A stretch of 38,452 bases of DNA from Longibaculum muris (GTDB taxonomy: Bacteria > Bacillota_I > Bacilli_A > Erysipelotrichales > Coprobacillaceae): the NCBI RefSeq assembly GCF_004343035.1, contig NZ_SMCQ01000029.1, forward strand, positions 1-38,452. Direction: 5' to 3'. Made by a program: the position numbers and the translations under genes. The notes under the pieces are model-generated. The model made no database searches and was not told the origin of the DNA. It worked only from the letters and a program-made list of their open reading frames with translations. Positions 2,623 to 22,153 of the stretch are shown here, piece after piece (position 1 is the stretch's first letter; each line of letters starts with the position of its first letter).

Positions 2623-2945
2623 ATTTTTTGTTGGGATAATTGTAAATATATCATGACACTACCTTAATGTCATATTGTCACCTCTGTAACTATTTTTATA
2701 ACTAGGACATATTACAGAAGGAGAAACATTATATAAGATAAAAATATATGTATGTTGATTTACTGGGTTTAAAAAATATGTTAGTTGTGACAAATAGATG
2801 TTAGTTATGACAAAATTATAAACATATTATAAAAAAAATATAAAATGTAGAATATAAAGGAGATAACAAATATAAAATATAGAATGAACATTAATTAAAA
2901 CAAATATTTGCAGTTTTTATTAAAAAATGAGGAAGGTGAAATATT
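2623..2945 (+). other. Regulatory region before agrD
   Basis: No gene is visible. The region holds the tandem repeats described at 2778-2814 and a possible -10 box (TATAAA at 2839). The sequence is very AT-rich. Confidence 0.4.
2778..2814 (+). promoter_or_regulatory. Tandem repeat, probable LytTR operator (site A)
   Basis: ATGTTAGTTGTGACAAA (2778-2794) and ATGTTAGTTATGACAAA (2798-2814) differ at one base and are 20 bp apart start to start, two helical turns. LytTR regulators are known to bind pairs of short direct repeats with about this spacing. A TATAAA at 2839 could be the -10 box of the agrD-agrB-RR operon downstream. Assignment to LytTR is inference from spacing and gene context. Confidence 0.55.
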
Positions 2946-3071
2946 ATGAAAAAATTATTAATAACTTTTTTTCTAAAGGTTGTTTCTTTTATGGCAATAT
3001 CAGGAGCACATTCAATTTCTGTTTTAGGAATGTATCAACCAAAAATACCTGATAATTTTAATGAAAATTAA
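2946..3071 (+). CDS. agrD: AgrD-like cyclic peptide precursor with Ser at ring position
   Basis: A 41-residue peptide gene with a good ribosome site (GAGGAAGG) lies directly before agrB. The N-terminus is basic and hydrophobic (MKKLLITFFLKVV), like the amphipathic leader of AgrD. The C-terminal part, YQPKIPDN, matches the conserved Q-P-K/E-x-P tail on which AgrB acts. By comparison with clostridial AgrD, the mature ring would be S25-V-L-G-M29, cut after M29. The usual Cys is absent from the whole peptide, so a lactone through Ser25 rather than a thiolactone is predicted. Ser-based AIPs are known in a few staphylococci. The exact N-terminal cut cannot be read from sequence. Confidence 0.8.
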   Translation: MKKLLITFFLKVVSFMAISGAHSISVLGMYQPKIPDNFNEN

Positions 3072-3790: not shown

Positions 3791-4486
3791 TTGAAATTTA
3801 AAATTATTGATGATGATTCGAATTTTTCTGTACAATTAAAATATGATTTATATGTTCACTTTAAAGATTATGTTAATATTGAAGATATAGAAATTTTAAC
3901 AAATGATTTTTATAAAATTAATTTAATAGATACAGATGTTATTTTTATAGATATTGACCTAGAAAAGTTTGATGGAATAGAATTATCTACACAAATTAGA
4001 AACATATACCCAGCAATCATTATTATATTTATTTCTTCACATGAAAATTTAGTTTTTAACACTCTTGTTGTAAGACCATTTCAATTTATTAGAAAATCAA
4101 AATACAACGAAGATAAATATATAGTATTTAGATTATTAAAAAAACATTTAGATATGTACTATAGAAATATTATTTTAACAATAAAAGGGAGAATGGTAAA
4201 AATTAATATAACAAAAATAATATACTGTATTTCACTGGGACATGAACTTACAATACATACAGAAAGCAGAGATTATGTTATTGCTAAATCAATATTACAA
4301 TTTCTAAACTTATTAGATTCAACAAATTTTGTACAAATTCAAAGAAATGTAATTATTAATTTAAGTTATTCAAAAGAAGTCACCAAAAAATTTGTACTGC
4401 TTTCACCAAATTATAAGTTCAATATTGGCAGAAAATATCAAAAAAATTTATTAGAATATTATAAAAAATATTTATTAACAAAATAA
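3791..4486 (+). CDS. LytTR-family response regulator (RR1)
   Basis: AgrA-like DNA-binding response regulator of 231 residues. The receiver has the acidic cluster IIDDD (residues 5-9), phospho-acceptor Asp54 in FIDIDL and a Ser switch region (FISSHE). The C-terminal half is a LytTR domain, with GHELTIHT, FVQIQRNVIIN and the final NIGRKY. The start is a TTG with AGGAGG 11 bases upstream; no ATG fits the receiver start. It is clearly paralogous to the regulators at 6616 and 20232. It follows agrB but has no sensor of its own next to it, so the sensor encoded at 5405 in the same island is the likeliest partner (inference). Confidence 0.88.
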   Translation: MKFKIIDDDSNFSVQLKYDLYVHFKDYVNIEDIEILTNDFYKINLIDTDVIFIDIDLEKFDGIELSTQIRNIYPAIIIIFISSHENLVFNTLVVRPFQFIRKSKYNEDKYIVFRLLKKHLDMYYRNIILTIKGRMVKINITKIIYCISLGHELTIHTESRDYVIAKSILQFLNLLDSTNFVQIQRNVIINLSYSKEVTKKFVLLSPNYKFNIGRKYQKNLLEYYKKYLLTK

Positions 4487-4582: not shown

Positions 4583-4991
4583 ATGAAAATTTATGTAGGA
4601 AAAAAAATCTAATCATTGGGACATTGAATCAAATAAAATTAGTGTCTATGACACGAAAGAAGTAATCTTTACAAGACCAGAGTTAGTTAATTCAGTTTAT
4701 ATAGATGATATTGACTATATTCATGTCTATTGGAAAAATATATTAATGGGGCGTTTGTTGAAATATGCTTATCCAATCTTCTTTTCAGTACATTTAAAAG
4801 ATAAAAGTAAGGTGACATTTGAGGCAATGCTAGGTACAAATAGAAAAAGTTTTATTGAAGCAATACAATTCTTAGAATCAAAAAATGTTGTTTTTAAATA
4901 TGAATATGAATTGCTTGATAAAATTAAAGATATGAATACAAATATATGGGAAAGTATTGAAGAAATTATTGCTTTTAAATTAAAAAAATAG
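4583..4991 (+). pseudogene. Frameshifted hypothetical protein
   Basis: The frame starts at ATG 4583 (MKIYVGKK) and stops after nine codons at a run of eight A. One base fewer in that run joins it to a long open frame (SNHWDIESNKISVYDTKEV onwards) ending at 4991, for about 135 residues. No transmembrane segment or known motif is visible; it looks like a small soluble mixed alpha/beta protein. The downstream part from 4746 is open but has no ribosome site. I do not recognise the family. Confidence 0.5.
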
Positions 4992-5279
4992 ATGTTTTTG
5001 AAGACAATGCAATTTTTAGAAATGATATAAGTAGTTTTAGATGGAGCTATAGAACTTATGATATTATCGTTAAATGAGACAAAGGAAAAGCAATAATTTT
5101 CATTAATGTCTGGGAAATTATCTTCAATGTTTATAAACCTAATTATAGAAAACGAAACATATTTTTTAAATATCTTAGGGATAATGATAAATGTGCAAAT
5201 ATCTATACAATACTAGATAATTATTTATTAGAAAGCATAATCTATATCTCAGTATTAAAGTGCATCGTAAAAAGATAAA
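4992..5279 (+). pseudogene. Decayed coding remnant
   Basis: One frame reads as protein-like sequence on both sides of an in-frame TGA (near 5075): FRNDISSFRWSYRTYDIIVK before it and KGKAIIFINVWEIIFNVYKP after it. A single TGG to TGA change would explain the stop. No start codon with a ribosome site is visible. The family is not recognised. From 5280 to the sensor gene end at 5405 I see nothing. Confidence 0.35.
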
Positions 5280-5404
5280 TAAAATTCATATATTTTTATG
5301 TGATAATCACATGGTTACTGTTTACTAAGCATACAAAGTGTTATCAGCACAACAGAGTAATATTATTAATAATAATTTCAATTACTAGGATATTTTATTT
5401 TGAT

Positions 5405-6622
5405 TTATATTTCAATAATCAATTTTAGAGTAACAATTTCTTTTGTATTGTTTAAAGTAAAGTCAGCATTGAATAACTTAATTAAATTATTTATTTCATC
5501 AGAAATTTTAAAATTATTAGTTGTTAATCTTCCTATAACCTCTATTAGAACAAAATTACTTTCTTGACTTATACCAAGGTTTAGTTCTTTGCTATTATCT
5601 AGATTGATTTCGAATATATATATAATTTTAAGTATTAGATCACAAAAATTTTTATTATTATATATATCATTTTGAGATATAAATATTGTTTTTTTGACAT
5701 ATATATCTTGAAAAATAAGTTCATTAATTTTTCTGCTAATTATAAAATCAAAGTATGGATTATTTGTTGTAATCATAGAATTAAACGATTTTACTTTTTT
5801 TATATATTGATCAGTTATAATTGATGCATTTTCATAGTCCATGTTATCGATGCAAGTTCTTAGCTGCATTAAAACATACATCATTCTATGTTCAGCTTCA
5901 GTAATTTGATTAGATATTGCAACTATTTTATTATAGTTCTCTGTATTATATTTATTCTTTTGAATTTCTAATGCTAACTTTATTTTTTCGGCATTTTCTA
6001 TTTGTATTTTTCTAAAAATTACTAAGAATAAAAATGATATTACTATAATAGCAATCATTAATATAAGAATCATATTTGAAGACATAAAATTGCTTAACAG
6101 ACTTTCTATGAGAATTGCTAAAACAAAAATAATAGATAATCCTAAGATCAAAATTATCCACCAATATTTCATAGGTAATTTAGTATTTGTTTTTAATTTA
6201 AATGCACAAGTTATAATTGCAATAAATGTAAAAATGAGTTTGGATAAAATTATAGCAAATACAAATAACTGTTGGTTGTCATAAATGTCTGTTGTACTAA
6301 TATTAAAGATTAAAGATGTACATGATAATGAAATCAAATTTGCAATTAGAAGCATCATTCCTGCGATGAAACAAATAATTATATCTTCAAAATTTTTATC
6401 TTTTTTTGTAATCCATAAAGATATTAATAGTGCAATTATAAGTATGTATAGTAAAAAATGATCAAATTCATTAATAAAATTTGATATACTAATGAGTGAA
6501 AAACAAATTAAAGAAACAATAGAGATATATTTTATTTTATCTTTTAAGTCAAAATAAAACGCAATAAAAGAACTTAATATGAAACCTTCTATAAAATTAA
6601 TCAAATAATTAAATACTACCAT
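5405..6622 (-). CDS. AgrC-like membrane sensor without visible ATPase motifs
   Basis: Probable sensor partner of the LytTR regulator just upstream; the reading frames overlap by 7 bases. The 405-residue protein has about seven hydrophobic segments in residues 3-204, then a helical linker and a dimerisation-type segment, EAEHRMMYVLMQLR, with His245 where HPK10 kinases carry the phosphorylated His. The C-terminal region aligns loosely with a GHKL domain, and NPYFDFIISRKIN resembles the conserved helix before the N box. However, the N-box position reads IIYIFEINLD with no usable Asn, and no glycine-rich G box is present. The sensor at 20927 has the same organisation and the same losses. It may be a non-canonical kinase or a pseudokinase receptor. 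Confidence 0.8.
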   Translation of the reverse strand: MVVFNYLINFIEGFILSSFIAFYFDLKDKIKYISIVSLICFSLISISNFINEFDHFLLYILIIALLISLWITKKDKNFEDIIICFIAGMMLLIANLISLSCTSLIFNISTTDIYDNQQLFVFAIILSKLIFTFIAIITCAFKLKTNTKLPMKYWWIILILGLSIIFVLAILIESLLSNFMSSNMILILMIAIIVISFLFLVIFRKIQIENAEKIKLALEIQKNKYNTENYNKIVAISNQITEAEHRMMYVLMQLRTCIDNMDYENASIITDQYIKKVKSFNSMITTNNPYFDFIISRKINELIFQDIYVKKTIFISQNDIYNNKNFCDLILKIIYIFEINLDNSKELNLGISQESNFVLIEVIGRLTTNNFKISDEINNLIKLFNADFTLNNTKEIVTLKLIIEI

Positions 6623-7314
6623 TTTAAAAATCTTTCCTTATATTTTTGAACAACAGTTTTTTTAAATTTTCTTCCAATGTTATATTGTTCATTATTTTTT
6701 AGATATACTATGCCTTTATTAATTTCTTTAATATAGTCAATATTAACAGCATATGCTTTTTGGATTTGAACAATATTTTTTTCCCCTAAAGTTTCTAAAA
6801 TATTTTTCATTGATGCTCTGCAAATATATTCGCCCTTTTTAGTTTTTATAATAATGTTATGACCTTTAGATTCTATAATGCATATATCTTTAAAATAAAT
6901 ATTAGTTATTCTACCATGAAATTCAAATGTAAAAAAAGACATTTGCTCATTAAAATATTTTTTTAACAACACAAACATTGTAGTTAAGTCATTTTTTAAA
7001 TTTGATTTTCTGACGAAATAGAATGGTCTGACAGATAGAGAGGAGAATACAAGTTCGTTTCTAGCAGAAACAAAAATTATAATAGGCTGATTTTCCCATA
7101 ACAGTGTGTTTTTTCCAATATTAATGCCATTTGATTTTTTTAAATCAATATCTAAAAAAATCAAATCATAAGGTTTATCTTTAATGCGATTATAGAAATT
7201 ATCATTTATAAGTTCAATTTTTAAATCATTGAATATTTTATTTAGGAATGATTCAATTAATTTTTTCAGAGTTCTAGAAAATATAATATCATCGTCTACA
7301 ATAGCAACATTCAT
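6616..7314 (-). CDS. LytTR-family response regulator (RR2)
   Basis: AgrA-like regulator of 232 residues. The receiver begins MNVAIVDDD, with phospho-acceptor Asp55 in FLDIDL and a Ser at FVSARNE. A LytTR domain follows, ending NIGRKF. The ATG at 7314 is chosen because AAGGTG lies at the right distance; the longer frame from 7326 would start at the GTG inside that ribosome site. The stop overlaps the start of the sensor gene, so the two should be co-translated. It is divergent from the 7598-8874 genes, and the tandem repeats at 7471-7504 lie between. Confidence 0.88.
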   Translation of the reverse strand: MNVAIVDDDIIFSRTLKKLIESFLNKIFNDLKIELINDNFYNRIKDKPYDLIFLDIDLKKSNGINIGKNTLLWENQPIIIFVSARNELVFSSLSVRPFYFVRKSNLKNDLTTMFVLLKKYFNEQMSFFTFEFHGRITNIYFKDICIIESKGHNIIIKTKKGEYICRASMKNILETLGEKNIVQIQKAYAVNIDYIKEINKGIVYLKNNEQYNIGRKFKKTVVQKYKERFLKW

Positions 7315-7470
7315 TGTAAAAATCACCTTCTTTTTTTTAATTATAGCATATTTAGATTATAAAAAAAATTGTTAAAGAAACCAAAGATTTACATTGATAT
7401 ATTTAAATATAATTATATTTTCATTAATGATTATAATATTGTTTCATTTTATAAACGAATTAAAATTATA

Positions 7471-7504
7471 ATGTTTTCTACGCAAAAAACAGGTGTTCTA
7501 CGCA
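7471..7504 (+). promoter_or_regulatory. Tandem repeat, probable LytTR operator (site B)
   Basis: TTCTACGCA occurs at 7476-7484 and again at 7496-7504, exactly 20 bp apart. The first copy is preceded by ATGTT, as in site A. A TATACT box at 7535 suits a rightward promoter. The site lies between RR2 (minus strand) and the small ORF at 7598 (plus strand) and may serve both directions. Confidence 0.55.
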
Positions 7505-10397: not shown

Positions 10398-10492
10398 TGA
10401 AATCAATAGAGATAAAATTAGTGTATAAACACTTGTTTTAGATATCTAATAACTTAGAAAAACACATAAAAATGTATATATATAATGAATGA

Positions 10493-12470
<1,978 letters not shown>

Positions 12471-12478
<8 letters not shown>

Positions 12479-14594
12479 TTGACAACACCTCCCATAACAT
12501 TGGTACAACTAGCTGTATAATGAATGCAACTGTAAAGATTACCAACACCGAATTAAAGTCTATGATATATGGCTGATAATAAACATATGCAGATATGAGT
12601 ACGACTACCCAAAGCATCATGTAAGAAATTATCGCTAGCAAAAGAGCATTAATGAAATATTTTTGGATCTTAATCTTTAATATATCCTTCTTTTGAAGAT
12701 AACCTATGCTTCTTAACCACTGGTTGAAATTTTTTTCATCCTTTCCCTTGATAAAATGAATAATTCCATAAATGAATGTTACAAAAATAATCGAAGCTAT
12801 ACTTATAAAATAAAGTGTTGTTTTTGTATTCTTCATAGATTCACCTATCAATTGATAATCATTATATTTCCAATCAACTGTCAGTCCTTTTGACTCCAAT
12901 TCATCAACAACCTTTTCAATGTGTTCAGTTTTATCAACCTCAACAGTGTATGCATTTGGTTGCCATGGTGTATAGACTTCAACCAAATCAGCATCTTCCA
13001 ATGAATGAGTTTCCACATATCCTTCTGCACTATCCCTCAAATAGACAGATTTTCCTTTTGTAGGCATACACGATTGGGCTATCTTTTCTAGCAATTGATC
13101 ATTCATATAAAAAGTTGCATCCTGTTCTGTCAGTGCTCCTTCTAAATCATGTTCAACCACACCTAATATAGGTAAAACTAATTCTTTAGAAGTACATTCA
13201 ATATAATTTGCCGGAAGAAAATCGTCGTCGCTTGTTTCTATACCACTTGGAGTACTTCCGGAAAATTGCATCTTTCCAGAAACATCATACATAGGTATTG
13301 CAATATTCATTTTAATAGATGCGTCTTTTAAATTATCTATCGTTAAGCCACATCTGATCATAAATTGCTTCGTTAAATAAATGCCATCTTCTTCATGATT
13401 TCGAAAGGATTCAGATATATATTTCTCTTTTTCTTGATTATTCATTTTATCAATAAATAATGTAAAAAAATTCGAATTGCTTTCCTTCAATTCTTTATCA
13501 ATAGTATTTTGATAATCATAAATGATTTGATTATCTTTAATAATTTGCATGGATGGATAACTTTTTAATAACCTCTCATCAATATAACTATGCAAAATAA
13601 TTTTTGGGGACATTGATGCAATGTTTGGTATATTTTGAATCGTAGCGAGTTCTGATGATGTTATAGGAAAATATGTTGCATTTTCCATATTTCCATTAAA
13701 GCCTGGACTACTTGGATCTAATCCTTTGTAAACCAATATGTTTCTGTTTTCAAGTGTTTCTAAGTCTGTTTCAAAAGATCGAAAGAATCCGTTGTCTACA
13801 TTGATTGAAAACGCACAAAGCGTTATAGCAAATGACATCAACAAAAGTGTGATACTTTCCTTGAAGATATGATGTTTTTTCATTTTCATAAAGATATTAA
13901 GCCAGTTTTTCTTTAATGAAATCTCTCTATTTTTAATTTTAGAAATTTTATTATTATCTAATAATGTACTATCTTGTAATATTAAATCATGATTGTCTAT
14001 TGTATATAGCATATCTGCATTATCAATAATATATGGATCATGTGTTGCTATAATAATATGACAATCTTTTTTTAGATTCTGAAGTAATTCTAATAATTTT
14101 ATTTTGTATTCAATATTCAATGAAGCAGTTGGTTCATCCATCAAAATAATCTGTGGTTTCATTATGGCAATAGCAACAAAGGAAGCTCTTAGTTTTTCCC
14201 CTCCTGAAAGCTGAGCAGGATATAAATCTTTTTCCTTTTCCAGACCCATTTGTTGTATCAGAAAATCTAAATTCGAGCATTGACCATATATACTTTCTAG
14301 AAGGCTCCAATAATCTTTTATCTTAAGATCTGTATTAAAGCTACATTCTTGCTGCATATAATAGAGATTTTTTAAATACTTCATCTGAACTTTATTATGA
14401 ACTATGCTTTGACCATTATATTCCATATCAAAACAAACTCCATATCTCAAAGATAACAAATCAAGCAAAGTTGTTTTGCCACTACCACTTTCACCTTTTA
14501 TCACAGTGATATGATGACTATAAAACGAAAAAGACACTTCTTCAAAAATTGTAAGTTGACTATAACTAAAACTCAAATCTTGAACTCTTATCAT
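12471..14594 (-). CDS. ABC transporter ATPase-permease fusion, first of pair
   Basis: A 707-residue protein with the same ATPase-then-FtsX layout as its downstream partner. Motifs are Walker A GESGSGKTT, Q-loop region YYMQQE, signature LSGGEKLRASF, Walker B IILMDEPTASLN and switch His in ATHD. A membrane segment near residue 250 is followed by an exterior domain of roughly 330 residues and three C-terminal segments. AGAAAGGA precedes the ATG at suitable distance. The gene is divergent from the PadR regulator at 14944, which may control it. A peptide exporter or immunity role is possible but not shown. Confidence 0.85.
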
Positions 14595-14943: not shown

Positions 14944-15285
14944 ATGGCTAAATATTCTAATTATTTATTTAAACTTGATTTATTGATTTTAAGTGTCTTA
15001 AAACATAAAGATATGTATGGCTACGAACTATCTAAAGTGATTTCTGAACAAACAAATGGTTATGTTGTGCCTAAACATGGGACTATGTATCCTGTTATTT
15101 ATAAACTTATTGAGGATGGTTATATCACTAGTCATACAATTGTTGTAAAAAACAAAGCGCGCGTTTATTATCATTTGGAAGATGAAGGAAAAGAATATCT
15201 TCAACAGCTTGTGGAAGATTATGATAATCTTGTACTACAAATTAACAATATTGTTCATGGAGGGGAAAACAATGACAGCAAATAA
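14944..15285 (+). CDS. PadR-family transcriptional regulator
   Basis: A 113-residue winged-helix regulator. It shows the typical N-terminal pattern LDLLILSVLKHKDMYGYELS and the recognition part KHGTMYPVIYKLIEDGYI, followed by a short wing (ARVYYHLEDEGKEYL) and a dimerisation helix. Length and order match the PadR-s1 subgroup. GAGGTAG precedes the ATG. The gene overlaps the next one by 14 bases, a common PadR-HAAS arrangement. It probably represses the divergent transporter genes and responds to a drug or peptide. Confidence 0.9.
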   Translation: MAKYSNYLFKLDLLILSVLKHKDMYGYELSKVISEQTNGYVVPKHGTMYPVIYKLIEDGYITSHTIVVKNKARVYYHLEDEGKEYLQQLVEDYDNLVLQINNIVHGGENNDSK

Positions 15286-15640
15286 AAGATATTATAGGGA
15301 TGTAAAAAAGCTTTTTCCTGTATATTTAAAAAAAGAAAAATTGTATCTTAACCAGCTTAAAGAACAAATTGATGAATATGAAGATACATCATATGAAGAA
15401 TTAGTTGATATTTTTGGCAATCCTATCGATATAGTGAAAGCATATTATGATACAATTAATAGTAAATATTTATTGAAGAGAATGAATTTAAAAAGAATTG
15501 TGACAATGACATGCATATTAGTATTACTATTAAGTACCCTTTATTTAGGGTATAGAACATACTCATTACACGAAGCAATTAATAATTTTGAGACTGGCAT
15601 TCCTGCAGAAATTGAAGAAACAATAGAAGTGGTAGAATAA
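15272..15640 (+). CDS. HAAS-like small membrane protein
   Basis: A 122-residue protein with an N-terminal helical cytoplasmic part (MTANKRYYRDVKKLFPVYLK through a predicted amphipathic helix with YEELVDIFGNPIDIV), one membrane segment (VTMTCILVLLLSTLYLGY) and a short acidic tail. This resembles the DUF1700/DUF6120 HAAS group that usually accompanies PadR genes. The ATG at 15272 has GGAGGGG before it and overlaps the end of padR; the longer frame from 15182 lies inside padR. The role is probably signalling or modulation together with PadR. Confidence 0.75.
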   Translation: MTANKRYYRDVKKLFPVYLKKEKLYLNQLKEQIDEYEDTSYEELVDIFGNPIDIVKAYYDTINSKYLLKRMNLKRIVTMTCILVLLLSTLYLGYRTYSLHEAINNFETGIPAEIEETIEVVE

Positions 15641-15768: not shown

Positions 15769-16199
15769 AAGTTTGGTTTTCCTCTATAACAAAATTTGTA
15801 GATCTTCATGTTATAGAAGATAAACATATCAGTTGATAAATAATTTCTATCTCCCAAAAATATCATTTTTTGATTTTCTGTATTATTATATAAACTTCAT
15901 TAATTTGGTAATGATAATTATTTATATATAAAAATATGATATTGAGACTGATTGTTAATCAATCTGACAAATAACAACTGACATGAGGAGTTGTGTTGTT
16001 TTCTTGTCTCTATAAGAAATAATTCAGATTATAAAATTAATATTTAAATACAGTATAGAACACTTATGTTGATTCATATGAGTTGATATAGGTGTTTTTT
16101 AATTTTTAAAATATTATATATAAGAAAGTTTATTGATAAAAAGGAATATATATAAAATGAATGTTATAGTTTATATATTGTGTATTTTGTGACTTAAAA
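15769..16199 (+). other. Intergenic region with terminators
   Basis: No gene is seen. A weak hairpin (ACAACT at 15974 with AGTTGT at 15989) precedes a T-rich stretch, and the strong terminator at 16059-16107 ends the PadR transcript. Confidence 0.45.
16059..16107 (+). terminator. Intrinsic terminator of the padR operon
   Basis: Positions 16059-16077 pair along 19 bases with 16078-16096 if G-U pairs are allowed; a small loop forms at the centre. The tail is TTTTTTAATTTTT. It separates the padR module from the second ABC pair. Confidence 0.7.
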
Positions 16200-16266
16200 A
16201 TGTTTCTTGTGAGTAAAAAATTGTTTGGTGATAGTTAAATGTGTTACAATTAAAAAAATATATAAT
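16200..16266 (+). promoter_or_regulatory. Promoter with tandem repeat (site C) before ABC pair 2
   Basis: ATGTTTCTTGTGAGT (16200-16214) and TTGTTTGGTGATAGT (16221-16235) form an imperfect repeat with a 21-bp period. A TATAAT lies at 16261-16266 with no consensus -35, as expected for an activated promoter. Sites A, B and C share the ATGTT-type left edge and the distance of about 40-44 bp from second repeat to -10. The LytTR regulator at 20232 is the likely ligand (inference). Confidence 0.5.
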
Positions 16267-16302: not shown

Positions 16303-18255
16303 ATGCTAGAGATTAAAGATATTCATATTTCTTTTGATAGAAATATATTCAATAATACACAAATTCAATTCTATTCCTCATCTATTCATGCGATTGTAGG
16401 GAAAAGTGGATCAGGAAAAACAACATTTTTAAAAAGTATTATACATGATTCATCTTTTTCACAATCAAAGATGTATTATAATCATGAAGAAATTCATCAA
16501 AAAGATGATTTTGTAAGAAATCATGTTGCTTATGTTGATCAGTTAGGAAGTTATTTTCCAAATATGTCAATTAAGCAACATTTTCAGTTTTATGCTGAAA
16601 TGAAGAAAGAAAAAATAGATGTACAAAAAATTAATCGTTGTCTAGAAAAAGTTAATTTAAATAATGTGAACATTAATAAATTACCAAGTGTTTTATCTAT
16701 TGGTGAAAGAAAAAGAATGTTAATTGCTCTTGCTATATTTTGTGATAAGGATATCATTATTTTAGATGAGCCAACAGCTTCACTTGATAAAAAGAATATA
16801 AGTTTATTAAAAAAGATATTGGTTTCATTAGAAGATAAAACAATCATATTAACAACACATACACCTGAAATATTAGAAATATGTAATGTTATTTATAAGA
16901 TAGAAAATCAAGAATTTCATTGTCAAAAGAATGATATTGATGAAACACAGGAAACTGAAATAAAATTAAGAAATAATTATCAGTTTTCACCAATTAAGTA
17001 TTTTAGATATAAAAGTTTAATTCAATGGATACAGTATATAGGGATTATAGTTATTTCTTTATTTATCCTTATTCAATCATCTTTAATCGTTAATTCTTTT
17101 TTAAAAACCACAAATGTTAGTTCTCAAGCAATAAATCAATCTTCAAAAGAAATGTTATTTATAAGAAGTAGAGAGGGTGAAATAGTTTGGGACTATAATC
17201 CTTCATCAGGATCTCATGATTCAAAACCTTTTGATGAAGATAATTTAAGCAAAATTAAACATATGGAAGGTGTAAAGGAGATTAAGAAATTTGAGGAATT
17301 GACCTTATTCAATCCTCATAGTGAGGAATCACAAACTTTGCAAATTGTTAATAAGAATGGAACTACAAAAAATTATACTATAAATGTGAGTGAGGGTTAT
17401 GACCTAAGAGTATATCCATATTATGAGAGTAATGATTTTAATGATCACGATAATGGAGTTTATATAAGCTATGGGTTATCACAAGTTTATAAGATTCATG
17501 AAGGAGATACAATTAAGGCGAAGTTTTATATTCCTAAAGATCAATATATAAAAGGTAGTGGGCTAGATTATCGAAGTGTAACATATACACTTAGAGAATT
17601 AGAATTTAAGGTCAGTAAGATTATTAAAAAGGATGACGGATATGAAACCGGAGTAACTGACTTGATTATTTATATTCCCTATGAAAATTTAATGAATATC
17701 ATGTCTCATATTGACAAGAAGGAAGAAATCATTTCTAGCTATTACATTGATAATGTTCTTTCTAAACAAGTTTCAGCACAGCCATATACCATGAATGAGT
17801 ATGTATTATTTGTAGATGAGGACTATGTTGCAGATATTAATAATTCTATTTTAGAGATGGATGATGAATATGATACATTTTCTAGATATCTGGGTCAGCT
17901 TGAATATGATAAAATGATGAAAGAAGCATTTCAAACAAAGTTGTTAAGTTTTGCTGCTATTTGTAGTGTGGGATTAATAGCCCTTCTTACAACACAATAC
18001 TTTTTAATGAAATCTAGAAAGAAAGAGTTTCAAATATTGGAAGATAGTGGGGTACAAGATAAGGATACTAAGAAAAGTCTTTTGTTAGAAAATAGCATGT
18101 ATTTTATCATCATATCAATAGCTGGTTTTTTATGGTTATATATTAATAGAGAACAATATGCATATATTACTCAATATTTAGCAGTCTTAGGAATAAGTTT
18201 TATATTATTGCTTTTAATGCATGCAGTTTCTCACCTTGTATTAAAGAAAAAATAG
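16303..18255 (+). CDS. ABC ATPase-permease fusion with atypical signature
   Basis: A 650-residue protein. The N-terminal ATPase has Walker A GKSGSGKTT (residues 33-41), Walker B IIILDEPTASLD and switch His in TTHT. The signature reads LSIGERKR, with Ile where the second Gly of LSGGQ is expected. A membrane segment near residue 245 is followed by a roughly 270-residue exterior domain and three C-terminal segments, the FtsX/MacB layout. A GGGGGC ribosome site precedes the ATG. It is followed 46 bases later by a second ATPase-permease gene, its probable heterodimer partner. One of the two composite ATP sites may therefore be weak. Confidence 0.85.
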   Translation: MLEIKDIHISFDRNIFNNTQIQFYSSSIHAIVGKSGSGKTTFLKSIIHDSSFSQSKMYYNHEEIHQKDDFVRNHVAYVDQLGSYFPNMSIKQHFQFYAEMKKEKIDVQKINRCLEKVNLNNVNINKLPSVLSIGERKRMLIALAIFCDKDIIILDEPTASLDKKNISLLKKILVSLEDKTIILTTHTPEILEICNVIYKIENQEFHCQKNDIDETQETEIKLRNNYQFSPIKYFRYKSLIQWIQYIGIIVISLFILIQSSLIVNSFLKTTNVSSQAINQSSKEMLFIRSREGEIVWDYNPSSGSHDSKPFDEDNLSKIKHMEGVKEIKKFEELTLFNPHSEESQTLQIVNKNGTTKNYTINVSEGYDLRVYPYYESNDFNDHDNGVYISYGLSQVYKIHEGDTIKAKFYIPKDQYIKGSGLDYRSVTYTLRELEFKVSKIIKKDDGYETGVTDLIIYIPYENLMNIMSHIDKKEEIISSYYIDNVLSKQVSAQPYTMNEYVLFVDEDYVADINNSILEMDDEYDTFSRYLGQLEYDKMMKEAFQTKLLSFAAICSVGLIALLTTQYFLMKSRKKEFQILEDSGVQDKDTKKSLLLENSMYFIIISIAGFLWLYINREQYAYITQYLAVLGISFILLLLMHAVSHLVLKKK

Positions 18256-18301: not shown

Positions 18302-20089
18302 ATGCTAGAAATAAAAAATATTTCACTATCATTTGATAAAGAACTTATTAAGAATGGCCAATTATATATTTATGATAATCAAATTACTGTTCTTTCTGGA
18401 CCAAGTGGTTCAGGTAAAAGTAGTTTATTATATGATATTGCTTTTTTATCTCATCAAAGTCAAATGAATTATATCTTTGATGGAAAGGATGTTCAAACAT
18501 TATCAAAAGATGAGATAAGAGATATTCAACGAAATAAAATTGCCTTTGTTTTTCAAAATATTCCATTATTCAATAGTATGACTCTCATGGAAAATATTCG
18601 TTTTTATGCTAGTTTAACACAAGAAACATTTTCTGAGGAAAAGGCACGTCAGTATTTAACAGACTTGGAGTTATTCTTAGATGATCATACAGATATTGAA
18701 CATTTATCTGGTGGAGAAAGACAACGTTTAGCAATTATTTGTGCTTTAATGAAAGATACACCTTATATATTCATGGATGAACCAACAGCTTATCTTGATG
18801 AAGATAATAGGGAAGAATTTATAAAAATCTTAGACTTATTAAAAAATCGTTATCATAAAACAATTCTCATCGCTTCACATGATAGTTTATTATTTGAAGC
18901 GTGTGATAATCTTTATGAAGTTAAGGATAAACAAATTCAATGTATAAAAAGCTCAGATTTAGTTAATGCTCATCCATCATTACAGCATAAAGATAAATAT
19001 GTATTCAAAGGACTTCCTTATTTTTATAAATGTGAATTTCGTAAAAATCAATGGAAACATAAAACTTTTCAACTGTTTTTAACATTTATTTTATTTATTA
19101 GTACATTTTGTGGAATGTATTTACAATATTATCAAAAGCAACTTGATAAAAACGTAGAAGAATATCGAAGTTCACAATTGGTAATAAGGATGGATAAGAA
19201 AATAAGTGGACCAGTGCTTAGAGAAATGGAAGGACTGCCAAATATCAAAGCTGTCAAAAGAATAACTCCACTTATAAGTGATAATCAATATTTGATATGT
19301 CCCTATTTAGAAAATGATTTTTTTACTCGTGGTATCAAACAATCATTGAAAAATGAAAATCATGCAGGTGTTTATATCAATTATGAAACATACAGAGATA
19401 CAAAAGACAAAGCAATAGATGTTATAGTTGAGGGAAAAAATATAACCCTTCAACCAGATTATCAATTAGATAAAGCATTTGCTGATTATAAATTAAAATC
19501 AAATCTTGCAAGAGTCATTTATCTTCCTTATGAAGATTATTTAAAGCTCTATAATTATAAAGATAACTCACCTATACAATCATCATATGCATTAATATCA
19601 TTAGATGATGCAAATGATTACCTTGAAACACTAGAGGTTCTTATTGATAAATATGAAGATATATCATTAGAAAATCAAATAGAAATAACAACTTTATTAA
19701 ATATAAAAAATACCACAGAACAATTTACAAATTCAATAATGATATTTATATGTGCAATCGTTGTTCTTTCAATAATTTTACTTAAAATTATTGATTACTA
19801 TCACTTAAGATTTTCTCAAGTCTTATTAGAAGTTAATGGTATCTCAAACAAGGATATGAGAAAACAATACATCATAAAAGAATTATCACAATATGGAATA
19901 CCAATTATCATTGCATATATAGCTTTACTCATAAGTTATGGAATATTGAAGATGTTAAATATTCAAATGATGATGTATCTATTTATGGTATTAATCTCTT
20001 GTGCATTTGTTATATTCATATTATCTATTATCATTTATATGATTATGAATAAGTTTTTATCTACAACTAAAATATTAAAGATGCTTTAA
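18302..20089 (+). CDS. ABC ATPase-permease fusion, partner of 16303
   Basis: A 595-residue protein with canonical ATPase motifs: Walker A GPSGSGKSS, Q-loop FVFQN, signature LSGGERQRLAI, Walker B YIFMDEPTAYLD and switch His in ASHD. The permease half has a segment near residue 255 (LFLTFILFISTFCGMYL), an exterior domain and three C-terminal segments. It is similar in size and order to the protein at 10742, so pairs 1 and 2 are likely paralogous exporters. The ATG at 18302 follows a weak GAAGGGA site. The substrate is unknown; the peptide-sensing genes downstream suggest a peptide. Confidence 0.85.
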   Translation: MLEIKNISLSFDKELIKNGQLYIYDNQITVLSGPSGSGKSSLLYDIAFLSHQSQMNYIFDGKDVQTLSKDEIRDIQRNKIAFVFQNIPLFNSMTLMENIRFYASLTQETFSEEKARQYLTDLELFLDDHTDIEHLSGGERQRLAIICALMKDTPYIFMDEPTAYLDEDNREEFIKILDLLKNRYHKTILIASHDSLLFEACDNLYEVKDKQIQCIKSSDLVNAHPSLQHKDKYVFKGLPYFYKCEFRKNQWKHKTFQLFLTFILFISTFCGMYLQYYQKQLDKNVEEYRSSQLVIRMDKKISGPVLREMEGLPNIKAVKRITPLISDNQYLICPYLENDFFTRGIKQSLKNENHAGVYINYETYRDTKDKAIDVIVEGKNITLQPDYQLDKAFADYKLKSNLARVIYLPYEDYLKLYNYKDNSPIQSSYALISLDDANDYLETLEVLIDKYEDISLENQIEITTLLNIKNTTEQFTNSIMIFICAIVVLSIILLKIIDYYHLRFSQVLLEVNGISNKDMRKQYIIKELSQYGIPIIIAYIALLISYGILKMLNIQMMMYLFMVLISCAFVIFILSIIIYMIMNKFLSTTKILKML

Positions 20090-20231
20090 TCTATAGTGAC
20101 TACCCTAATAACCTCATAAAATGCTAAATTTTAAAATTAATTTATGATATAATAAATGAAGAAATAAATTTTAATTTTGTTGAAATAACAGATTATATTT
20201 ATTTCTTATTTATTTAATGGGAGAGTTAATT

Positions 20232-20930
20232 ATGAATGTTGTTATTGTAGATGATGATTTAGAATTTGCAAAATTAATAGAAAAAGATGTTTCTCAGTTT
20301 TTTTCTCGTTTATATGATTTTGTATCTATAGATATTATTAATGATGATTTTAAAAGAATAGAGGATTATTCATCTATTGATCTTGTTTTTTTAGATATTG
20401 ATTTAAAAAAAGAATATAATGGTATAAATATAGGACAATTTATCCAAGATTATTTTCCAAAAGCAATAATAGTTTTTGTTTCAATACATGAAGAACTTGT
20501 TTTTTCAGCATTATCTATTCGATTTTTTCAATTTATACGTAAAGCACAATATCAAACAGATATTGTTAAAGTATTAAAACAAGTAAAAAAATATATGGAT
20601 GAAAATATTAAGAGAATTTTGATTAAAGTTGATGGAAGAACGCATGTTATTAAGTTTAGTAAAATAATTTATTTGATGGTTATAGGACATGATCTTATTA
20701 TTAAAACTATTGATAATGAATTGACTATTCATAGTTCATTGATGAAGTTTATGAATCAGGTAGATTATAAAGAGCTTGTTCAAATAGAAAGAAATTTAGT
20801 AATTAATTTAAATTATGCTAAGGAAGTTATGAGAATAAAAGTTGTTATGTATGATGATGTAGAACATAATGTTGGAAGAAAATATCAAAGTCAGCTTATA
20901 GAACAATATGAGGAGTTTTTATTAAAATGA
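20232..20930 (+). CDS. LytTR-family response regulator (RR3)
   Basis: A 232-residue AgrA-like regulator, MNVVIVDDD at the start, Asp55 as phospho-acceptor in FLDIDL, Ser switch in FVSIHEELVF, and a LytTR domain ending NVGRKY. The ATG at 20232 is chosen because GGGAGAG lies in front; an in-frame ATG at 20217 overlaps that site. Its TGA overlaps the sensor ATG (ATGA), giving coupled translation. It lies 142 bases after the ABC pair, with a TATAAT (near 20147) between, so it may be transcribed separately as well as by read-through. Confidence 0.9.
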   Translation: MNVVIVDDDLEFAKLIEKDVSQFFSRLYDFVSIDIINDDFKRIEDYSSIDLVFLDIDLKKEYNGINIGQFIQDYFPKAIIVFVSIHEELVFSALSIRFFQFIRKAQYQTDIVKVLKQVKKYMDENIKRILIKVDGRTHVIKFSKIIYLMVIGHDLIIKTIDNELTIHSSLMKFMNQVDYKELVQIERNLVINLNYAKEVMRIKVVMYDDVEHNVGRKYQSQLIEQYEEFLLK

Positions 20931-22153
20931 TTTTATTTGACACTATTATGACAATTATAGAAGATTTTATTTTATCTTATTTTAGTTTTAAGATTCTTGA
21001 AATTAATGATAAAAAAGGTTTAATATTTTTAAATGCGATTATTTGTTTCATTGAGACATTCATATTTAATAATTATATAACAAACAACTTTCTATTATTA
21101 GCTTTATTAATTATGACGAACTTTGTAATAATCTATTTTGTAAAGAAGGAATTGAATTTATACTACTTTATTATTCCATCAATATTGATTGCTCTTTTAC
21201 TTTTCTCTAACACTATATCGTTAGTTTTTGTATCATTGTTTCTTAATATTAGTCCAAAAGATATAGGATTAACAAATACAGCAGTCATAATCCTATCTTT
21301 GATTTCAAGAGTATTTTATTTCATATTTGGCTTTATGTTTTATTATGTGGAGAAAAGATTAAAACAGTATAGAAAAGTTACTTTAAAAAAAGATTATTGG
21401 ATTGTATTTTGTATTTTTACGTTTACTTTTTTAGGGGCTTATACTATCTTGTATGAAGCTATTTTTTATCAAACAATTGGTAGTAAGACAATTTATAATC
21501 TGTTATTTCTCTTTATCGTCTTAATTATATCCTTTTTTATATTATATTATCGTATGCAAATAGATCACTATAATCATATGTTAATAAGTAATGAATTGTT
21601 GAAAAGTCATTATGCTGAAGAATTATATAAGAAAACAAATAAATTATCATATCAAATACTTCAAGAAAAACACCATATGTTCTATATTCTTATTAAAATA
21701 AGGAATTTACTTAAAAATCATAATTTAGATGAAACTTCTTTATTTGTTAATGAAGTGATTGAAAATTATCAAGCATATGAATTAACTCAAACATCAAATG
21801 TGCCAGCTTTTGATTACAATATATTAAATTATATAAATCTATTAAAAAAAGATGGTTACAATATTACTACAATTATAACTGTAGGTAATAATAAGATGCT
21901 AGAGGATATCCATATTATTAATATCATAAAAGAATGTATAGAAACAATTGTGCAATATACAACTAATGAAAGACAATTTGATTTACAATTACATGATAGT
22001 GATTCCTATTTAATTTTAAAAATAACAACGCATAAACAAAATAATCAACTGCCTTTATTATCAATAAAAAAATCTGATCTCGTAAGAAAGGCTGATATTA
22101 TAACTAATGAAAATAATGAAGTTGAATTAAGAGTATTGTTTTTTACTAAGTGA
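20927..22153 (+). CDS. AgrC-like membrane sensor without visible ATPase motifs
   Basis: A 408-residue partner of RR3 with about seven membrane segments in residues 5-207, then a helical linker and QEKHHMFYILIKIR, where His249 aligns with His245 of the sensor at 5405. The shared pattern is H-x-M-x-Y-x-L-x-x-x-R. The C-terminal region retains NVPAFDYNIL before the place of the N box. The N-box region reads IIKECIETIVQYTT without the expected Asn, and there is no glycine-rich G box before the end (ELRVLFFTK). Intact length and repeated occurrence argue against simple decay. It may use another phosphate source, act with a second kinase, or signal without ATP. Confidence 0.82.
   Translation: MILFDTIMTIIEDFILSYFSFKILEINDKKGLIFLNAIICFIETFIFNNYITNNFLLLALLIMTNFVIIYFVKKELNLYYFIIPSILIALLLFSNTISLVFVSLFLNISPKDIGLTNTAVIILSLISRVFYFIFGFMFYYVEKRLKQYRKVTLKKDYWIVFCIFTFTFLGAYTILYEAIFYQTIGSKTIYNLLFLFIVLIISFFILYYRMQIDHYNHMLISNELLKSHYAEELYKKTNKLSYQILQEKHHMFYILIKIRNLLKNHNLDETSLFVNEVIENYQAYELTQTSNVPAFDYNILNYINLLKKDGYNITTIITVGNNKMLEDIHIINIIKECIETIVQYTTNERQFDLQLHDSDSYLILKITTHKQNNQLPLLSIKKSDLVRKADIITNENNEVELRVLFFTK

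Follow-up and report, generated by a model that had tools for sequence, protein, structure and literature searches.

An AgrC-like membrane receptor family that lacks the ATP-binding site and keeps its histidine beside LytTR regulators

The stretch analyzed here, 38,452 nucleotides of Longibaculum muris DNA (contig NZ_SMCQ01000029.1; hereafter the window), carries at 20927-22153 a gene whose product, judged by its sequence, is a membrane receptor that arose from a histidine kinase of the AgrC type (HPK10) and has lost its ATP-binding site. AgrC is the textbook peptide-sensing kinase. The sensor belongs to a clade of 30, all from the window's own family of gut bacteria and including a second protein of the window (5405-6622), whose members keep the H-box histidine (His) and, within 150 bases in 27 of the 30 cases (in the stretches fetched), a LytTR response regulator; these receptors probably control their regulators otherwise than by the textbook route. 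A conserved branch that keeps receptor, His and regulator but not ATP binding would show agr-type signaling without receptor kinase activity, and would be a natural test case for the role of the His and of the residue four positions after it (+4) once kinase activity has been lost. Because annotation tools key on HATPase domains, the receptor is missed in these loci.

The 20927-22153 frame is intact over 408 codons; the LytTR regulator gene at 20217-20930 ends in a stop codon that overlaps the sensor's ATG. Six to seven membrane helices are predicted in the N-terminal region of the protein, and its H box, QEKHHMFYILIKIR, contains H249. Domain searches returned zero Pfam domains at E 10, with no match to PF14501 even at that threshold, and zero NCBIfam domains at E 1. 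When the protein is aligned with its kinase-competent relatives, which carry HATPase_c_5, their N box SNLLDNA falls opposite KECIETI, and the G-box stretch is missing. The alignment bears out the first-pass annotation, which had reported neither box in this protein; as far as sequence goes, loss of the ATP site with retention of the His is confirmed. The helix string H-x-M-x-Y-x-L-x-x-x-R that the same annotation had drawn from the two window sensors holds in part: the H and Y are invariant, while the L is kept at 77% and the M and R fall outside the 30 most conserved columns.

To place the sensor among its relatives, 43 genomes of the same bacterial family were searched with the 20927 protein, 316 genomes of the order with a profile built from 18 sensors, and 392 genomes across the phylum by profile; a narrower locus alignment took in six named loci, and 26 intact (kinase-competent) homologues served as the comparison set in the motif table. 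Relatives include Candidatus Stoquefichus massiliensis, Thomasclavelia and Erysipelatoclostridium. The phylum-wide search of 392 genomes found no further clade member outside the bacterial family; two extra matches elsewhere in the class carry the N-box motif. In the full-length tree, the 27 long-enough clade members form a single group with support 100/100. Four of the 30 members are cut by contig ends, and in all 26 with a complete C-terminal domain the ATP-site motifs are lost, none having intact N and G boxes. The loss is not sporadic across the clade. The N-box Asn is present in 26/26 intact relatives versus 2/26 scorable clade members, and the G-box Gly in 26/26 versus at most 1/30.

Conservation is concentrated at two positions. 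His is found in 30/30 clade members and Tyr at +4 in 30/30, whereas the 26 intact relatives have 21 His, 4 Asn and 1 Tyr at that position. H249 and Y253 (H-x-x-x-Y) are the only fully conserved columns of the clade, and their 100% identity in 30 sequences, against 34% for the median column, is more than chance. The acid directly after the His (+1) is kept in 7/30 members, the commonest residue there being Arg (12/30). The profile searches thus answer the check proposed in the first-pass annotation, with the ATPase motifs gone across the family (26/26 scorable members) and the His kept throughout. No close homologue with normal boxes was found: the closest relatives of the 20927 sensor (E 7e-166 to 2e-18) are all clade members, and the best match with normal boxes (E 1e-8, 24% identity) lies outside the clade. 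Two paralogues alone, from which a conserved sensor subfamily had been proposed, would be thin evidence; the 30 members carry that claim.

Phospho-Asp, Lys and Ser/Thr are each retained in 27/27 clade regulators, and the acid pair in 26/26 scorable ones; the intact phospho-Asp claimed for the partners of the two window sensors stands, all five receiver residues being kept in both. The regulator tree groups as the sensor tree does, with clade regulators separate from those of intact kinases.

The second window sensor shares 23% identity with the 20927 protein and, as had been noted, is an intact paralogue with the same loss of the ATP site. It lies in an island that also holds agrB and an agrD-like gene, in the order regulator (6616-7326) then sensor (5405-6622). 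With the 20927 protein as query, these two sensors were the only copies found in their own genome; a profile search brought in two further, more distant relatives, of which one has the ATP site and the other does not.

Profile-profile comparison (hhalign) against five intact relatives gave a probability of 99.7 and E 1.4e-25 along 347 columns, a match which indicates descent of the 20927 sensor from a kinase of that sort. Both window sensors were modeled with AlphaFold (predicted local distance difference test, pLDDT, 76 for the 20927 sensor and 72 for the 5405 sensor), and each model has a GHKL-like domain at its end, with the GHKL core topology kept. In a fold search, the best solved match of the 20927 model was S. 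aureus AgrC (6e95, Z 13.1), with the AgrC CA domain (4bxi) at Z 12.7 and a root-mean-square deviation (rmsd) of 2.5 over 120 residues; S. aureus AgrC was also the best solved match of the 5405 model (Z 14.9; 4bxi rmsd 2.4 over 124 residues). Spo0B (1f51) and a phosphotransferase-receiver complex (4qpj) matched the 20927 model as well, both with Z 10.2, ranking below AgrC among many kinases. At the sequence level, a profile search of PDB sequences gave no relevant match, and none to Spo0B, ChpT or PhyT. For pairs of ATPase-less sensors, the ratio of nonsynonymous to synonymous substitution rates (dN/dS) ranges from 0.08 to 0.24 over the helix domain that bears the His, and from 0.14 to 0.29 over what is left of the ATPase domain; the remnant domain is under purifying selection. 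A pseudogene reading was rejected on the open frames and a dN/dS well below 1, and a mobile-element origin of the sensor on zero matches in plasmid and phage collections or viral contigs.

Like the clade, S. aureus AgrC (HPK10, HATPase_c_5) has a membrane receptor region, a dimerization helix that bears the His, a C-terminal domain of this fold and a LytTR partner, and agrB is nearby in many relatives; the clade differs in lacking the N box, G boxes and lid, in having mostly lost the +1 acid, and in its Tyr at +4. Sphingomonas PhyT (formerly PhyP) is likewise membrane-anchored, with a degenerate ATPase domain, and encoded at its regulator's locus; its His is essential and followed by Arg, as in 12/30 clade members, and it combines phosphate transfer through the His with restraint of the regulator by binding (PMC5898713). 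PhyT differs in its HRxxN motif with the Asn kept, in belonging to another kinase family, and in its periplasmic sensor domain and role in the alphaproteobacterial stress response. Spo0B and ChpT are dimeric phosphotransferases with a degenerate ATPase-like domain, and both kinds appear in the fold search, but they are soluble phosphorelay members without a receptor domain. ChpT bound no ATP, and a remnant domain of this sort can be a stable fold without it (PMC3433190). The pseudokinase DivL also reuses the kinase fold without kinase activity (PMC4211667); its His, however, is replaced by Tyr, whereas that of the clade is invariant. Degenerate histidine kinases are already known as a kind. 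In the libraries and open-access text searched, there appears to be no description of an AgrC/LytTR receptor branch in which the ATPase is missing from end to end of the group, the His is kept and the +4 position is always Tyr. The earlier suggestion of an undescribed subfamily agrees with the lack of a curated family model and, as weaker evidence, with our finding no description in open-access text.

Without an ATP site the receptor would be unable to charge itself, and an invariant His paired with a regulator whose phosphorylation site is intact suggests that the receptor acts on the side of the regulator. By analogy with PhyT, Spo0B and ChpT, we propose, at roughly even confidence, that the regulator is charged externally and the receptor works on it through His-dependent phosphotransfer and/or binding. 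The regulator's phosphate would come from elsewhere, either from acetyl phosphate or from an intact HPK10 kinase of the cell; the dimerization helix would control the regulator by taking the phosphoryl group onto the His and/or by holding the regulator; and a bound signal, probably a peptide, would toggle between holding and release, so that the receptor would be a signal-gated phosphotransferase or gatekeeper and not a kinase. The genome has two acetate kinases, and intact HATPase_c_5 proteins occur in 43/43 family genomes, the window's genome alone giving 15 matches. Acetyl phosphate rapidly charges LytR, a regulator of the LytTR type (PMC4830213), and in HisKA proteins the +1 acid is required for kinase but not for phosphatase activity (PMC3510030). 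Only tentatively would we go further, to a peptide receptor of the agr type that does without ATP altogether, bears the H-x-x-x-Y signature and gates an acetyl-phosphate-charged LytTR regulator, peptide and acetate metabolism being read jointly.

Several points weigh against a receptor that acts on an externally charged regulator. HisKA phosphatases need Thr/Asn at the position matching +4 (PMC3510030), and since Tyr takes that place in the clade, a classical phosphatase is unlikely; the HisKA rules may, for their part, not be transferable to HPK10 proteins. The alignments behind the AlphaFold models are shallow, with only 8 rows. Finally, no agrB adjoins the 20927 sensor, the genome's only agrB being ~17 kb off.

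The abundance of intact HATPase_c_5 proteins and the invariance of the His would also suit trans-phosphorylation, in which the sensor forms mixed dimers with an intact HPK10 kinase whose ATPase domain charges H249, the phosphate then passing to the regulator. There is a partial precedent in Corynebacterium, where the CA-less ChrS increases target expression via its paralogue HrrS, although the pseudokinase's own His was dispensable and a heterodimer with the truncated form was not detected (PMC9491836). The clade regulators moreover group apart from those of intact kinases, and the +1 acid needed for HisKA kinase activity (PMC3510030) has mostly been lost, so that we consider this route unlikely. 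We find equally improbable a pure scaffold, which would bind and release the regulator according to the signal while H249 is never phosphorylated and the regulator is phosphorylated independently: DivL is such a binding module without kinase activity (PMC4211667), and the loss of the +1 acid and ATP site would fit, but there would be no need to conserve a His that is never phosphorylated (DivL has Tyr), and here the His is kept in 30/30 members and in 7/7 ATPase-less sensors of other lineages. A divergent active kinase, whose rearranged C-terminal domain binds nucleotide in a new way, is much less credible; it could account for the GHKL core topology of both models and for the purifying selection, but it runs against the disappearance of the Mg-binding Asn, the G-box glycines and the lid stretch, and against the free variation of the substituted positions from member to member, where a new active site would be conserved. 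Least plausible is a split kinase, completed by a separate small ATPase protein: short HATPase_c_5 frames do occur in some genomes, but the 181-codon example in the window's genome runs into a masked N stretch, which makes its length meaningless, and the fetched neighborhoods hold no stand-alone ATPase-domain gene beside the sensors, with the exception of a CA-bearing frame of ~567 codons near L068 and L074.

Loss of the ATPase is not confined to the clade. The sensors L093/L094, L097/L098/L099 and L100 have lost the boxes, carry Tyr at +4 and are placed among intact kinases in the full-length tree, while L117 has lost the boxes and keeps His at +4. A single loss for all ATPase-less sensors was rejected, as the full-length tree needs ~6 changes and its starred branches force 4. 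The tree of the N-terminal part implies the same number of changes, but its deep branches are poorly resolved, and the 30 clade members do not come out as a single group in it. Separate losses in other branches of the kinase superfamily make the lack of an ATPase a recurrent outcome. ATPase loss and Tyr at +4 go in the same direction, as in the main clade, in about 3 of 4 independent pairs, a number too small for a significant result. One of these sensors, L094 (7158-8381 on contig C3), lies close to an ABC transporter gene and gives the window's own genome a second ATPase-less lineage. In the regulators of L097, L098, L099 and L117, the second acid-pocket residue is Asn.

The genes around the sensors suggest what they may perceive. 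At least 12 of the 30 clade members have agrB at ≤ ~5 kb, where by our arithmetic random scatter would give ~0.2, and in seven (L066, L071, L078, L079, L080, L081 and L086) agrB lies immediately downstream of the sensor; this proximity indicates that many clade receptors occupy AgrC's usual position. Upstream of the 20217-20930/20927-22153 pair are two fused ABC transporter genes, and similar transporter genes adjoin L059, L094, L098, L099 and L100. For the 20927 sensor, the neighboring genes suggest a signal of the peptide or bacteriocin type. The LytTR regulator at 3791-4486 may share the 20927-type sensor, because the tree places it with regulators of that type. The coordinates of these features are collected in Table 1.

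Table 1. Features of the window that bear on the ATPase-less sensors
Feature	Position	Strand	Basis or remark
Tandem TGTTAGTTRTGAC repeat, 20-base period, upstream of agrD	2772..2811	+	
agrD-like peptide gene (MKKLLITFFLKVVSFMAISGAHSISVLGMYQPKIPDNFNEN)	2946..3071	+	AgrD-like by eye only
agrB, sole copy found in genome	3146..3700	+	PF04647
LytTR regulator without adjacent sensor, beside agrB in agr operon	3791..4486	+	Groups with 20217-type regulators in tree
Paralogous ATPase-less sensor, 405 aa, within island	5405..6622	-	Sequence search, model, fold search
LytTR response regulator of the 5405-6622 sensor	6616..7326	-	PF04397 + PF00072
Tandem TGCGTAGAA repeat, 20-base period, upstream of regulator 6616-7326	7473..7504	-	
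Tandem repeat, 20-base period, upstream of ABC pair; candidate LytTR site	16181..16220	+	
ABC transporter, ATPase fused to FtsX-type permease	16303..18255	+	Pfam + NCBIfam
Second fused ABC transporter	18302..20089	+	Pfam + NCBIfam
Partner LytTR response regulator	20217..20930	+	PF04397; receiver residues D12, D13, D60, S89, K109 intact
ATPase-less AgrC-like sensor, 408 aa	20927..22153	+	Open reading frame, family, tree, motif table, fold
N-terminal membrane receptor region, residues ~1-211	20927..21560	+	AlphaFold model helices + hydrophobicity reading
Codon of His249 (H box)	21671..21673	+	Invariant, 30/30 clade
Codon of Tyr253, +4 from His	21683..21685	+	30/30 clade; His/Asn in 25/26 intact relatives
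Degenerate catalytic (GHKL) domain, residues 290-408	21794..22150	+	Without N box, G boxes, ATP lid

Tandem repeats with a 20-base period are the expected form of LytTR sites. The pattern common to 2772-2811 and 16181-16220 has only these two matches at ≤1 mismatch in the 3.17 Mb genome, a result that is suggestive only, because the pattern was derived from those same two sites. In the relatives, no convincing recurrence of a TTGTGA-type tandem site was found, except for one two-mismatch match upstream of the L064 regulator. Inspection by eye gave convincing AgrD-like peptides for the window, L063, L066, L097 and L099 only. Downstream of agrB at L071 and L078 lies a conserved 44-residue peptide (MTKALERVLYLIIGIFLNSCSRIE...SKSRAGCL), in appearance unlike an ordinary AgrD.

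Repeats of the lysS 3' end flank the island with agrB, agrD and the paralogous sensor: a 151-base stretch at 1752-1902 recurs at 10482-10632 (89%), 8,730 bases downstream, and no integrase was noticed among the island's open reading frames. The stretch 4583-5280 resembles a decayed gene, with a short start and then pieces in several frames. A further pair of fused ABC-FtsX transporters, at 10742-14594 on the minus strand, is divergent from a PadR-type regulator and a DUF6120 protein (14944-15640).
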